Origin: an uncultured Bacteroidales bacterium
GTDB lineage: Bacteria; Bacteroidota; Bacteroidia; Bacteroidales; Muribaculaceae
Length of the DNA: 33,016 bases
Reading direction: 5' to 3'
Assembly (NCBI GenBank): GCA_902792435.1
Contig: CADAZN010000010.1
Span: 1 to 33,016, forward strand
Shown here: in pieces, positions 14,584 to 18,541 of the stretch
Layout: every line of letters starts with the position of its first letter
Position numbering within the stretch: the stretch's first letter is position 1
The notes under the pieces: generated by a model
The model's input: the letters and a program-made list of their open reading frames with translations, nothing else
Databases searched by the model: none
Told to the model about the DNA's origin: nothing
Made by a program: the position numbers and the translations under genes

Positions 14584-14702
14584 AAGACAACTAAGTACAA
14601 GATTATTTTGCATTTGATACTATGTTATTACTGACAATTGACTTCGGTGCAAAATTGTCCTTAATAAAAAAGAAAAAATGCCACTTCGTCCTTAATTGTC
14701 TT
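14584..14702 (+). repeat. Inverted-repeat-ended element in front of the aldo-keto reductase gene (copy 1)
   Basis: The left end AAGACAACTAAGTACAAG (14584-14601) and the right end TTCGTCCTTAATTGTCTT (14685-14702) are imperfect inverted repeats. An internal ATTGTCCTTAAT lies at 14654-14665. The whole 119 bp resembles the element at 18411-18541 read on the minus strand, including an interior ATACTAT...TTATTAC and ATTGACT. It ends 11 bp before the ATG of the gene at 14714. Confidence 0.65.
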
Positions 14703-14713
14703 TAAAAATAATT

Positions 14714-15811
14714 ATGGAATACAAGAAATATAAAGATATAACCATTTCCCGCTTGGGCTTTGGCAATATGCGATTGCCCGAGAAAGACGGGCGCATCGAC
14801 CGTGAGAAGGCCAGTGCGATGATTGACCGAGCCATGAAGGGTGGTGTGACCTACTACGATACCGCTTTCATGTATCATCATGAAGACAGTGAGACCTTTT
14901 TGGGTGAGGTTCTGCCAAACTATCCCCGTGATAGTTTCTATCTTGCCACCAAGTTCAACATTGGTTTCAATCCCGATTATCGCCATGTGTTTGAGACTCA
15001 GCTCAAAAAGCTCAAGACCGACTATTTCGATTTCTATCTAATTCATGCCATTGGTGACAATACAATCCATCCTTATGTAGAGGATGGCAGTGTGGCCTAT
15101 CTCATTGAGCAAAAGGAGAAAGGACGCATTCGCAACCTCGGTTTCTCGTGTCATGCCAGCATTGAGTCGTTGAGGTGGTTTGTGGAGCAGTATGACTGGG
15201 ACTTTGCCCAGATTCAGCTCAACTGTTTCGACTGGCTATTTTCTCACACTCAAGAGGAGTATAAGATTCTTGAGGAACGCAACATTCCCATTGTTGTTAT
15301 GGAGCCTGTGCGAGGTGGACGGCTCTCTCGTCTAGTGCCCGAGGCTGAGGCGATGCTGCGTGAAGCGCATCCCGATTGGTCGTTGGCATCGTGGATGTTC
15401 CGTTTTGTGCGCTCGCTTCCACAAGTGCAGGTGATACTGAGCGGCATGAGCACGATGGAGCAGGTAGAAGACAACTTGCGAACTTTTGATGATGACAACA
15501 ACTTCACTGAAGCCGACCGTGACATGCTTTTCCGCGCCATGGAAATGTTCAAGTCCCAGATGCAAGTACCGTGCACCGCTTGCCGCTACTGTACTGATGA
15601 CTGCCCTATGGGCATCAACATTCCAGAGTTTTTGAAGCTTTATAACAAATACAAAGTGGATGGCGATTTTGGCCTGAAAGACCTGCTGGCTAAGGTGGAA
15701 TCAATCAGTCCCCCATCGGAGTGCCTCAATTGTGGCAGCTGCGCTGGCCATTGCCCACAGTCAATCGACATCCCGTCAATCATGACCGAAATGGGTGAGA
15801 AATTCTACTAA
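14714..15811 (+). CDS. Aldo-keto reductase with C-terminal 4Fe-4S ferredoxin-like domain
   Basis: A 365-residue oxidoreductase. The N-terminal 270 residues form an aldo-keto reductase TIM barrel with the catalytic tetrad Asp49 (YYDTA), Tyr54, Lys80 (LATKF) and His111 (YLIHAI). The C-terminal part has two CxxCxxCxxxC clusters (Cys287/290/293/297 and Cys337/340/343/347), each followed by P as in bacterial ferredoxins, so it should bind two 4Fe-4S centres. Such AKR-ferredoxin proteins are widespread in anaerobes, but their substrates are mostly undefined. The start at MEYKKY is preferred over an in-frame TTG six codons upstream. It is a single gene, placed directly behind the inverted-repeat element that also precedes icd. 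Confidence 0.9.
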   Translation: MEYKKYKDITISRLGFGNMRLPEKDGRIDREKASAMIDRAMKGGVTYYDTAFMYHHEDSETFLGEVLPNYPRDSFYLATKFNIGFNPDYRHVFETQLKKLKTDYFDFYLIHAIGDNTIHPYVEDGSVAYLIEQKEKGRIRNLGFSCHASIESLRWFVEQYDWDFAQIQLNCFDWLFSHTQEEYKILEERNIPIVVMEPVRGGRLSRLVPEAEAMLREAHPDWSLASWMFRFVRSLPQVQVILSGMSTMEQVEDNLRTFDDDNNFTEADRDMLFRAMEMFKSQMQVPCTACRYCTDDCPMGINIPEFLKLYNKYKVDGDFGLKDLLAKVESISPPSECLNCGSCAGHCPQSIDIPSIMTEMGEKFY

Positions 15812-15822
15812 CCCATAATTAC

Positions 15823-15863
15823 TTTTTTTGAACGAGATAAATCTCGCACTACCCTGACGACGC
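15823..15863 (+). repeat. REP-like sequence, left of the RAYT gene
   Basis: This 41-base sequence has a seven-T run, GAAC, a hairpin CGAGA-TAAA-TCTCG, then GCACTACCCTGAC and ACGC. It recurs on the same strand at 16986-17026 with one difference (40 of 41 identical). The two copies frame the transposase gene. Confidence 0.8.
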
Positions 15864-15906
15864 CAATTTGTAGCGCGCTTCCTTTTACACAAGGGTGCTC
15901 CTAAAA

Positions 15907-15942
15907 GCGTTGTTGAGGTAGTGCACGGCTTTGCCGTGTTCA
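15907..15942 (-). repeat. Inverted REP-like sequence at the RAYT stop codon
   Basis: Read on the minus strand this is TGAAC, a hairpin CACGGC-AAA-GCCGTG, GCACTACC and then TCAACAACGC. It keeps the GAAC...GCACTACC...AACGC frame of the plus-strand REP, while the stem bases differ but still pair. Its TGA is also the stop codon of the transposase (15940-15942). Confidence 0.7.
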
Positions 15943-16917
15943 TGAGTTGATGTGGCCAGCAACCAATTGTGCTATGTCATTAAGCTCAAGGCATTGCGCT
16001 CGTGTGATGGTGGGAGGGTGTGCTTGGTATTCCCATGGTGAGATGAGCAATAACTGTCCTCTTGCACAAGCGTCAAATTGTGCTCCTCCTGGTTTCCAGT
16101 TTGGGGAGAACCCGTTAGCCATCACTACTATATGAGGAAAGCCAGCATTGAAGATTGCCCTCATGACCTTTTTCTCACCATTGCTTATGCATGGCGATAT
16201 TGTTACTATTCCTTGCTCCGCCATAGTCAAGTATTTTATTGTTTCTTTTTCTATCTCCTTGTCACTCATCTTTTGTGAGCACCTCACGGCCTCTTTTAAG
16301 GGATATTGCAGCAGAAAGGTGTTGCCAGCCATTGACATCTTGCGGCCTGCTATGATGATATCACGGTGGACAGTAAAGAATTCTGGGTGATGGCTTTTTA
16401 CCCATTTCCTCAGTGGGTTATCAATGATGTAACGAAGCATATTGCTGAGCTGATTCTCGCCTCTGAGGATGCGATCGTGATACCCCGTTTGCCACAGCAC
16501 ATCTCCAATAATTTCTCGAGAAGCGTCATTGCAGGCCTTTTTAAAGCCGTTGATTACATTTCCAAGATGACATGGCATGGGCTCGGTGACAAAAAGAATA
16601 CCATGCATGTGGTCGGGCATGATGATGGCTTGTATCATCTTCATCTCTTTGCGAAAGGTGGGTATCTTGCGCCAATTTTGAAGCACTGTCTTTCCCAAGG
16701 GCGACAACTCAACCCAGGGCTTGGTGTGGATGTTGTCGCTATTGCGTAAAGTCCCCAGTACTGGCTTACGGTCTTTAGTCACAAGAGTTATCATGTAAAT
16801 GCAGCGTGCGCGATAGTCGTGACCTGCTTTGCGGCGATGGTTGTTGGGCGTGAATTTAGGCAGCTGCTTTTGGCGCTTCCACCATTCTCTTCTTGATGTG
16901 TCGCGGTCATAGCTCAT
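15940..16917 (-). CDS. REP-associated tyrosine transposase (RAYT) with extra C-terminal domain
   Basis: A 325-residue protein. Residues about 35-190 are a Y1/HUH nuclease of the RAYT (TnpA_REP) type: the metal-binding HUH pair is His103-x-His105 in MPDHMHGIL, and the nucleophile is probably Tyr163 in LRYIIDNPLRKW. WQTGYHDRIL (142-151) is another family block. RAYTs nick single-stranded DNA at REP hairpins, and typical ones are about 150-220 residues. Here about 130 further residues (195-325) follow, with GIVTISPCISNGEKKVM, IVVMANGF, KPGGAQFDACARGQLLL and ISPW. That pattern of strands and loops recalls the DprA/SLOG Rossmann fold, but this is inferred from memory. The gene lies between REP-like repeats and has no second transposition gene. 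No frameshift is visible, so it may be active. Confidence 0.88.
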   Translation of the reverse strand: MSYDRDTSRREWWKRQKQLPKFTPNNHRRKAGHDYRARCIYMITLVTKDRKPVLGTLRNSDNIHTKPWVELSPLGKTVLQNWRKIPTFRKEMKMIQAIIMPDHMHGILFVTEPMPCHLGNVINGFKKACNDASREIIGDVLWQTGYHDRILRGENQLSNMLRYIIDNPLRKWVKSHHPEFFTVHRDIIIAGRKMSMAGNTFLLQYPLKEAVRCSQKMSDKEIEKETIKYLTMAEQGIVTISPCISNGEKKVMRAIFNAGFPHIVVMANGFSPNWKPGGAQFDACARGQLLLISPWEYQAHPPTITRAQCLELNDIAQLVAGHINS

Positions 16918-16985
16918 AATGCAAAAGTAGTAATGTTTTCTATAACCACGTCATTTCTCTCTAAAAAAATCATAAATAGAGGAGA

Positions 16986-17026
16986 TTTTTTTGAACGAGA
17001 TAAATCTCGCACTACCCTGACAACGC
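16986..17026 (+). repeat. REP-like sequence, right of the RAYT gene
   Basis: Direct copy of 15823-15863 with a single G to A difference. It has the same T run, GAAC, hairpin CGAGA-TAAA-TCTCG and GCACTACCCTGAC. It lies 68 bp upstream of the transposase start codon. Confidence 0.8.
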
Positions 17027-17114
17027 TTGTTTCAGCGTCCGCCGCATGCTCTTGTAGGAGTTACAGCCATCACGGGCTTGGGGGCAAGAACATTTTTAAC
17101 GATGAATATCAGAA

Positions 17115-17149
17115 TAAAAAACACCGACAAGTATTTGCCGGTGTTTTTA
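17115..17149 (-). terminator. Terminator of the icd transcript
   Basis: On the minus strand ACACCGGCA pairs with TGTCGGTGT (one mismatch) and is followed by TTTTTTATT. It lies about 25 bp beyond the icd stop codon and also has A/T runs suited to stopping transcription from the other side. Confidence 0.75.
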
Positions 17150-17170
17150 TTTTTGTTAGTAATGGTGTGA

Positions 17171-18388
17171 TTAGCAACCGAGACGCTTCTCGAGGTTGGC
17201 GCGGATGGCCTTGATGAAGTCGAGGCTGTTTACCTGCTTGGGCTCGATACCTTCCATGAGGTTAACGAGGTCCTTAGTTACGATACCTGCGTTGAGGGTA
17301 TCGAAGCAAGCGCCTTCGAGCTGATCGCCAAAGTTGATGAGATCGTTGAGACCGTCCTTCTCACCACGTTTGCGCAGAGCACCGCTCCAAGCGAAGATGG
17401 TAGCCATTGGGTTGGTAGAGGTCTGCTCTCCCTCAAGATACTTGTAGTAGTGGCGAGTCACGGTGCCGTGAGCTGCCTCATACTCGTAGTTGCCGTCGGG
17501 GCTAACGAGGACGCTGGTCATCATAGCGAGTGAACCAAATGCGGTAGAAACCATGTCGCTCATTACGTCGCCATCGTAGTTCTTGCAAGCCCAGATGTAA
17601 CCACCCTTGCTGCGGATTACGCGAGCAACAGCGTCGTCGATAAGGGTATAGAAGTACTCGAGACCGAGTTTCTCGAACTCTGCCTTGTAGTTCTGCTCAT
17701 AAACCTCCTCGAAGATGATGCGGAACTGAGCGTCATATTTCTTAGAGATAGTGTCCTTGGTTGAGAACCAGAGATCTTGCTTGGTGTCGATAGCATACTT
17801 GAAGCAGCTGTGAGCAAACGAGCGGATAGACTTGTCAACGTTGTGCATACCTTGCAGAACGCCAGGACCCTTGAACTCGTGGATAACAACCTCTTCCTTC
17901 TTGCCACTCTCGCCTTCGAATACCATCTTAGCAACGCCTGGCTCATCGGCACGAATCTCTACGCTCTTGTAAACGTCGCCATAGGCGTGACGAGCGATAG
18001 TGATAGGCTTCTCCCAGTTCTTAACAACGGGCTTGATGCTTGGGATGGTGATAGGAGCGCGGAACACAGTACCATCGAGGATAGAACGGATGGTGCCGTT
18101 AGGGCTCTTCCACATCTCGTGGAGCTTGTACTCGTCCATGCGTTTGAGGTTAGGAGTGATAGTAGCGCACTTAACAGCTACACCAAGCTCTTTGGTCTTC
18201 TCGGCGGCCTCAACAGTGATTTGGTCGCGAGTCTCGTCACGCTTAACGAGGCCAAGGTCATAATACTCAGTTTTGAGGTCCACGAAGGGGAGGATGAGTT
18301 CGTCCTTGATCATCTTCCACAGAATGCGGGTCATCTCGTCGCCGTCCATCTCCACGATAGGAGTGGTCATTTTGATTTTTTCTGCCAT
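17171..18388 (-). CDS. icd: NADP-dependent isocitrate dehydrogenase (eukaryotic type)
   Basis: Interconverts isocitrate and 2-oxoglutarate with NADP(H) and CO2 in the cytoplasm. The protein is 405 residues from the start MAEKIKM; in-frame codons upstream run into the repeat element and are not conserved-looking. It is the homodimeric eukaryote-like subfamily: TTPIVEMDGDEMTRILW at the N-terminus, substrate-phosphate region SPNGTIRSILDGTVFR, and the isocitrate/isopropylmalate signature YDGDVMSDMVSTAFGSLAMMTS. AAHGTVTRHY forms the NADP site. It is the last gene of the citrate lyase-hydratase cluster, 175 bp behind its upstream neighbour. That gap holds an inverted-repeat-ended element that may give it separate expression. 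The reaction is reversible, so the cluster can run either way. Confidence 0.97.
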   Translation of the reverse strand: MAEKIKMTTPIVEMDGDEMTRILWKMIKDELILPFVDLKTEYYDLGLVKRDETRDQITVEAAEKTKELGVAVKCATITPNLKRMDEYKLHEMWKSPNGTIRSILDGTVFRAPITIPSIKPVVKNWEKPITIARHAYGDVYKSVEIRADEPGVAKMVFEGESGKKEEVVIHEFKGPGVLQGMHNVDKSIRSFAHSCFKYAIDTKQDLWFSTKDTISKKYDAQFRIIFEEVYEQNYKAEFEKLGLEYFYTLIDDAVARVIRSKGGYIWACKNYDGDVMSDMVSTAFGSLAMMTSVLVSPDGNYEYEAAHGTVTRHYYKYLEGEQTSTNPMATIFAWSGALRKRGEKDGLNDLINFGDQLEGACFDTLNAGIVTKDLVNLMEGIEPKQVNSLDFIKAIRANLEKRLGC

Positions 18389-18410
18389 AAAAAAATAGTT
18401 GTTTTTTGGG

Positions 18411-18541
18411 AAGACAATTAAGGACAATGTAGCATTTCTCTTTTTTATTAAGGACAATAGCTAACGTATTCAATGGTAACGCAGTCAATAGTCGGTAATA
18501 AATAGTATTTAACGCATAAATGGATTGTCCTTAATTGTCTT
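18411..18541 (-). repeat. Inverted-repeat-ended element in front of icd (copy 2)
   Basis: Perfect 18-base terminal inverted repeats AAGACAATTAAGGACAAT (18411-18428) and its complement (18524-18541) bound 131 bp. An internal copy of ATTAAGGACAAT lies near 18447-18458. Read on the minus strand, the element aligns along its length with the one upstream of the aldo-keto reductase and ends 22 bp before the icd ATG. Confidence 0.75.

Follow-up and report, generated by a model that had tools for sequence, protein, structure and literature searches.

The locus and its hairpins

The locus described here lies in a stretch of 33,016 nucleotides from an uncultured Bacteroidales bacterium of the Muribaculaceae (the whole of which is termed 'the window'), and comprises a gene for a REP-associated tyrosine transposase (RAYT), three hairpins and two adjacent metabolic genes. 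The features are as follows.

14696-15811, plus strand: left flank, aldo/keto reductase family gene (PF00248, E 9.6e-36; 92.3% DNA identity to L229, the corresponding locus of the related genome G063)
15812-17113, no strand assigned: aligned segment of 1,302 bp with the gene and all three hairpins, facing 18 bp in G063 (L229)
15827-15858, minus strand: REP downstream of the RAYT gene, in gene orientation (stem 15833-15837/15842-15846, GTAG 15849-15852)
15912-15944, plus strand: inverted REP at the RAYT stop codon (stem 15924-15929/15933-15938, GTAG 15918-15921)
15940-16917, minus strand: RAYT gene, 325 amino acids, stop included (HuH motif PDHMH, WQ, Y-I-I-D-N-P)
15943-16398, minus strand: predicted C-terminal DprA-like Rossmann domain, residues 174-325 (structure model and Foldseek)
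16405-16806, minus strand: HUH/Y1 nuclease domain, residues 38-171 (NF047646 match, structure model and Foldseek)
16990-17021, minus strand: REP upstream of the RAYT gene, in gene orientation (stem 16996-17000/17005-17009, GTAG 17012-17015)
17171-18457, minus strand: right flank, gene of the isocitrate/isopropylmalate dehydrogenase family, termed icd (PF00180, E 4.2e-53; 97.7% DNA identity to L229)

A preliminary description of this DNA had reported a direct repeat around the RAYT gene and a third, oppositely oriented copy beside its stop codon, and both are present: positions 15823-15863 and 16986-17026 agree at 40 of 41 bases (98%), and the third copy overlaps the stop codon. The stems are also as claimed (CGAGA/TCTCG in both direct copies, CACGGC/GCCGTG in the inverted one), and the flanks said to be kept, GAAC-N(8-18)-GCACTACC, occur three times in the window versus never in 100 shuffles. 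Of the three bases of the stop codon TGA (15942-15940), two fall within the GAAC flank of the inverted copy. The layout of the repeats was correctly recognised but their strand needs correction, the REP form (GTAG-TG-stem-loop-stem) being that of the opposite strand. There each copy reads GGTAGTG-stem-loop-stem-TTC, with GTAG at the 5' foot, which is the classical form of a REP. Read on that strand, both direct copies share the orientation of the RAYT gene, and the order in gene orientation is REP, RAYT gene, inverted REP, REP.

The folding energies of single copies are unremarkable (z -1.2 to -2.6 over five strands), and the case for the hairpins is built on comparison, not on folding energy. 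A weak hairpin past the upstream REP, at 17070-17100, could be a decayed inverted REP; it would then complete the doublet that is seen on both sides of some RAYTs (for example, at L034).

A nuclease core joined to a second predicted domain

The RAYT gene is intact, and its product carries the motifs DHMH, WQ and YIIDNP. It matches the REP_Tyr_transpos profile NF047646 with an E value of 3.4e-16 (59.4 bits, below the curated cut-off of 80) and Y1_Tnp with 21.7 bits, just under the cut-off of 23. All 48 aligned homologs match NF047646 and 44 of them match Y1_Tnp (at E values up to 1), and 87 of 89 proteins longer than 250 amino acids have MP[DN]HxH as well as Y---NP. W142, D148 and Y163 are invariant across the 48 alignment rows. 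Judged by its spacing from the tryptophan, D148 stands at the place of E. coli E100, a residue that is replaced by aspartate in subclasses 2.5 and 2.7 (PMC6006769). The residues that contact GTAG in E. coli are only partly kept, namely the tryptophan and the acidic residue (placed by spacing), and the place of R104 varies. Positions H147 and R149 look different between proteins with GTAG or GTGG hairpins and those with GTAT hairpins, in a comparison whose four to five independent tree pairs put significance out of reach. Two features expected of class 2 RAYT/TnpAREP proteins are found in the window: the combination of HuH and Y---NP in a Y1 core, and inverted REPs with a 5' GT[AG]G tag beside the gene.

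An AlphaFold2 model of the protein (built with 48 sequences; pLDDT 91.6) divides into two halves in Foldseek searches, of which the N-terminal one matches ISDra2 and IS608 as well as 4er8, the RAYT of E. coli; the matches of the C-terminal one are DprA and ShosA. When the C-terminal half is modelled by itself (pLDDT 92.6), its 14 best matches are all DprA or ShosA, with TM-scores of 0.62-0.70 by query length; the same two proteins account for 13 of 13 matches at an E value of 0.001 or less, and the first unrelated match has an E value of 0.069. On the strength of these models, the C-terminal half of the RAYT, of about 150 residues, very probably adopts a DprA-like fold. A separate match in BFVD, with an E value of 3.7e-4, was set aside for its TM-score below 0.2.

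By sequence, the link to DprA is weak (profile E value 0.05). PF02481 matches two of the 48 homologs, with a best E value of 0.13, and an hhalign comparison of the C-terminal half against 12 DprA sequences from the genus gave an E value of 0.019 and a probability of 2.4% in collinear register, too weak to stand alone. A Pfam search with the C-terminal half alone returned no families. Across 395 genomes of the phylum, searched at an E value of 1e-8 with at most nine candidates scored per genome, that half was matched in the window's own genome only. That genome also encodes a separate DprA. Among phages and plasmids there are one and three distant relatives, respectively, which match in the core only, and a single unnamed PHROGs family was matched at an E value of 0.0025. 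Within a limited coverage of the literature, no title was found that describes the fusion of a RAYT with a DprA-like domain.

Tagged hairpins at the RAYT loci of the genus

Ninety RAYT loci of the genus were examined (from among more than 150 matches listed) for hairpins carrying GT[AG][GTC] zero to two bases from the stem and no more than 350 bp from the RAYT gene. Such tagged hairpins were found at 60 of the 90 loci (GTAT at 23, GTAG at 12, GTGG at 12, GTGT at seven and GTAC at six), some of the single assignments being possibly due to chance. The remaining 30 loci include at least two, L014 and L059, that the rule misses, which is not so for most of the others; several of them have long untagged or double-footed palindromes instead. 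On a tree of the RAYT proteins from 54 of the 60 labelled loci (six truncated or doubtful ones were left out), tag type changes 12 times versus 28.9 times in shuffles, and 0 of 200 shuffles is as low, a clustering that near-copies favour. GTGG forms one clade and GTAC is unclustered (four changes for four rows). From these sequences, tag type appears largely to follow the RAYT tree.

The preliminary description had argued that the hairpin itself is selected, since its stems differ in bases and keep their pairing, and this argument gains from the wider set of copies. The 18 GTAG copies, of which 17 are distinct and which come from 11 loci, are paired in 102 of 102 cells, with 28 double changes versus 7.7 in shuffles and changes on both sides in five of the six stem pairs; in 22 GTAT copies, 132 of 132 cells are paired, with 14 double changes versus 2.6. 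The rows of both counts had been picked as hairpins. In a less biased test, all occurrences of a tag word were scored for whether they open a stem of at least five pairs, within 350 bp of a RAYT versus elsewhere in the same loci. GTAGTGC does so in 22 of 31 cases near RAYTs versus five of 23 elsewhere, GTATTGC in 65 of 93 versus 16 of 41, GTGGGCC in 21 of 34 versus none of 23, and GTAGCGC in four of seven versus four of 31. Together, the paired substitutions in the GTAG copies and the counts for GTAGTGC bear out selection on the hairpin. Changes of stem with preserved pairing were already known for proteobacterial REPs (PMC2817692). The GTGG pattern, allowing up to two mismatches, has copies in 27 of 101 genomes, the reversed control being zero in every listed genome, and the copies include some whose two mismatches complement each other (CCGTGGC/GCCACGG and CCGCGGC/GCCGCGG).

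Stems and orientation are also related. Within a locus, the five loop-side bases are identical in 56 of 72 pairs of hairpins with the same orientation versus 10 of 68 pairs with opposite orientations, and the latter 10 all come from L086, L089 and L095; in 31 of 34 loci no stem is common to both orientations, and the window locus obeys the same rule. Of the REPs closest to the gene, the upstream one has the gene's orientation at 35 of 50 loci, and the downstream one has the opposite orientation at 32 of 38. Most likely, the unlike stems would prevent a REP and an inverted REP from pairing as one long hairpin, or would let the enzyme distinguish the two.

A search for a cleavage dinucleotide, at offsets of up to 25 bases on each side of 146 hairpins, gave nothing salient, the best offsets accounting for 16, 17 and 13 of the 146. 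The pairs of guide and cleavage sequences tried were GTAG-CT, GTGG-CC and GTAC-GT (PMC8266576), together with GTAT-AT and GTGT-AC as our own extension of that rule. CC is found at -3 in 14 of 28 GTGG copies.

Distribution of RAYTs and dispersal of hairpins

Of the 101 genomes of the genus, 81 contain RAYT homologs at an E value of 1e-5, with as many as 12 matches in one genome; the two in the window's genome are 45% identical. Among 295 genomes of the order, the family profile at an E value of 1e-20 matches 20, of which, judged from the match ranges, 10 (the window's genome included) span both halves in one piece, two are partial or in pieces and eight have the nuclease core only; two of the 10 have internal stops in at least one copy. 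A scan of named genomes confirmed at least 560 RAYT relatives. Eighty of these belong to uncultured Prevotellaceae, Muribaculaceae and Porphyromonadaceae, a Bacteroidaceae, other Bacteroidales and Prevotella communis E15-14, and many of the 80, judged from record titles, come from rumen or gut samples. These named relatives agree with a Bacteroidales host, as given in the preliminary description.

The hairpins accompany the gene. A hairpin model, R1, has matches at an E value of 0.1 in 71 of the 101 genomes of the genus, divided between 67 of the 81 RAYT-bearing and four of the 20 RAYT-less genomes (p 2e-7); 14 RAYT-bearing genomes are without a match. For the better genomes the counts are 40 of 43 versus one of five (p 9e-4). 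A second model, R3, of the GTAT type, matches in 67 of the 101, including four of the 20 RAYT-less genomes; the two overlap, in that R1 also catches GTAT copies. Outside the genus, R1 has a match in one of 30 control genomes (two from the same family, 23 from the order and five from the class), of which 24 lack a match to the family profile at an E value of 1e-20 and six were checked with the C-terminal half only. With part of the candidates scored, the per-genome maxima are at least 22 matches for R1 and at least 43 for R3 (in G021).

The preliminary description had stated that its reading would fail if the repeat occurred only at this locus. For the GTAG type this is literally the case in the window's genome, in which three copies were found, all at the RAYT locus. 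Against drawing that conclusion are the GTAT relatives in the same genome and the hairpins in other genomes of the genus. Among the other places scored in the window's genome, seven hairpins are tagged with GTAT (two each on contigs C4, C7 and C15 and one on C42, the last adjoining the second RAYT), and an eighth scored place, on C54, has no clear tag. Forty distant hairpin places were fetched, hand-picked away from known RAYTs (two of them from the window's genome; one proved to lie beside a RAYT), and 24 of these are between open reading frames, as delimited by a crude caller under which 88% of the sequence counts as coding.

Some hairpins are grouped. On contig C4 of the window's genome, three GTAT-tagged hairpins lie within about 200 bp (L126:2000-2210), and no RAYT was found in the 4.2 kb around them. 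Regular REP arrays, with periods of about 35-120 bp, are found upstream at L076, downstream at L074 and L085, and at G100:C34:4400-4561, G089:C13:71-400 and G015:C3:65464-65855, suggesting local tandem amplification.

The reductase-icd site in related genomes

In three related loci (L229 in G063, L231 in G077 and L232 in G026), the reductase gene and icd are adjacent and about 80 bp apart. To L231 the left and right flanks are 90.4% and 95.6% identical in DNA, and to L232 they are 81.7% and 91.8% identical. G063 has no RAYT at an E value of 1e-5 and no R1 match. The exact junctions of the 1,302-bp segment cannot be placed because the short spacer differs. The closest homologs of the RAYT, L009 (62%) and L010 (61%), are not beside reductase and icd in the stretches examined. 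Gain of the whole unit would be the simpler reading of this pattern, as opposed to its loss elsewhere; the latter is kept alive by RAYTs of another subfamily, which about ten genomes have at the icd end.

These other RAYTs, which start with MDNS and are about 45% alike, lie beside the 3' end of icd in ten genomes, seven on the icd strand and three on the other (L047, L049-L053, L055, L067, L068, L248 and L249; L248 and L249 were tested directly and the rest assigned from coordinates). Some of their loci have long double-footed palindromes, such as TATTACGGGCT-loop-AGCCCGTAATA. L236 and L228 carry other inserts with open reading frames in the reductase-icd gap, and in L236 the insert is followed by a second copy of the reductase gene's end, so that the gap looks like an insertion hot spot. 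An inverted repeat at 17099-17166, between the inserted unit and icd, is kept in the empty-site relatives; by eye it is possibly a terminator, and the consensus scan did not report it.

A proposed mechanism and its alternatives

The REP/inverted REP layout proposed in the preliminary description is upheld by GTAG-tagged hairpins that frame an intact gene, by their paired substitutions, by the linkage of hairpins and gene across the genus and by the presence of the whole unit in some relatives but not in others, and we regard the locus with high confidence as a 'REPtron', in which a RAYT is combined with the hairpins cognate to it. When a strand is exposed in single-stranded form (for example, as the lagging-strand template), a RAYT dimer would bind the hairpin and read its GTAG tag, the tyrosine Y163 would nick and rejoin DNA near the hairpin, and hairpins would thereby be copied or moved at a low rate, and the whole unit rarely. 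Taken as a whole, a REPtron with this presumed mechanism is probably the best explanation of the locus.

The unit might instead be an insertion sequence of the IS200/IS605 type, moving as an ordinary transposon with the direct copies as its left and right ends. A gene flanked by direct copies on one strand, and a 1.3-kb unit missing from three relatives, would both fit such an element. It is nevertheless improbable: the RAYT has Y---NP and not the Y---Q of subclass 1.1 (PMC6006769), both adjacent genes are metabolic, and near-identical copies are lacking, the second homolog in the genome being 45% identical and 37 within-genome pairs from seven genomes (26 mapped loci of the 90) being 44 to 73% identical.

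A different proposal starts from the C-terminal half, for which the top single fold match is ShosA (8zva). ShosA belongs to a defence pair of the toxin-antitoxin type, and the half might serve as a nucleotide-sensing or defence effector, as DprA and ShosA relatives may do, the REPs being only autoregulatory sites. No PADLOC model matches the window RAYT, its two neighbours are metabolic genes and hairpins of the same kind occur away from RAYTs, all of which make an effector of this sort quite improbable. Least probable is a role of the hairpins as transcription terminators or mRNA-stability elements flanking a transposase gene by chance, as the position of the 24 distant places between open reading frames might suggest, for at none of the three hairpins did the consensus scan report a terminator-like site, both tag and orientation are conserved, the type of tag largely tracks the RAYT tree, RAYT-less genomes are mostly without the hairpins and the RAYT gene is intact.

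Within the REPtron reading, the likeliest role of the DprA-like half, which we offer tentatively, is to bind single-stranded DNA made or used by the nuclease half. A more speculative extension, which we consider rather unlikely as a whole, is that a RAYT lineage captured the DprA-like domain to become a one-protein machine for single-strand processing, with a radiation of paralogs whose whole units are still gained and lost among closely related species, contrary to the view that RAYTs are inherited vertically and do not copy themselves (PMC8049555). The HUH half would nick at REPs, and the DprA-like half would hold the freed strand and might pass it to RecA, so that hairpins and entire REPtrons would be re-inserted; many divergent paralogs, with subfamily-specific tags (GTAG, GTGG, GTAT, GTAC and GTGT) and stems, would be the outcome. 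Were this so, the radiation would constitute a natural series of altered guide specificities.

The question addressed by such loci is how RAYTs spread REPs and why their hosts keep them. Dozens of diverged RAYT-REP pairs, with five tag types and orientation-specific stems, provide natural variants for testing how the guide is read and how REP and inverted REP are discriminated, and the added fold, known from a protein that binds single-stranded DNA, offers a way to probe the fate of the cut strand.

Comparison with known systems

A REPtron of known kind is in keeping with the available texts of PMC2817692, PMC6006769, PMC3733652 and PMC8266576. The RAYT/TnpAREP REPtrons of E. coli and Stenotrophomonas, with their GT[AG]G REPs (PMC2817692, PMC6006769), have in common with the window locus the HUH/Y1 core with Y---NP, the GTAG at the 5' foot of the hairpin, the inverted REPs that flank the gene and a BIME-like module in which an inverted REP lies between two direct ones. 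The inverted pairs formed by the different but related Y and Z REPs of E. coli, in its REPtron and BIMEs, are a further likeness (PMC6006769). Unlike those systems, the protein here is 325 amino acids long with a predicted DprA-like C-terminal half, the tags of its family also include GTAT, GTAC and GTGT, dispersed copies are few, and genomes of the genus have several divergent paralogs each.

Subclass 2.6 (group 5 of Bertels), as described in the 2018 survey, consists mostly of Bacteroidetes TnpAREP proteins with a median length of 179 amino acids and the motif NH[LIV]H, whose hairpins are atypical and lack GT[AG]G (PMC6006769). It shares phylum and class 2 core with the window RAYT, whose 325 amino acids, DHMH motif and GTAG tag place it outside that subclass; tagged REPs are now placed in a large Bacteroidales RAYT family, versus the untagged subclass 2.6. 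Subclass 2.4, which is also found in Bacteroidetes (median 194 amino acids, NH[IFV]H), has canonical long REPs (PMC6006769), so that tagged REPs in Bacteroidetes are not new as such. DprA (PF02481) and ShosA share their Rossmann fold with the modelled C-terminal half of the RAYT, which differs from DprA in its length (about 150 residues versus the 212 positions of the Pfam model), in drawing no Pfam hit and in being fused to a nuclease. As far as can be seen from the available parts of PMC2817692, PMC6006769, PMC3733652 and PMC8266576, three aspects appear to be new: a RAYT with a DprA-like C-terminal half, tags beyond GT[AG]G within one family, and the size of the radiation in Bacteroidales.
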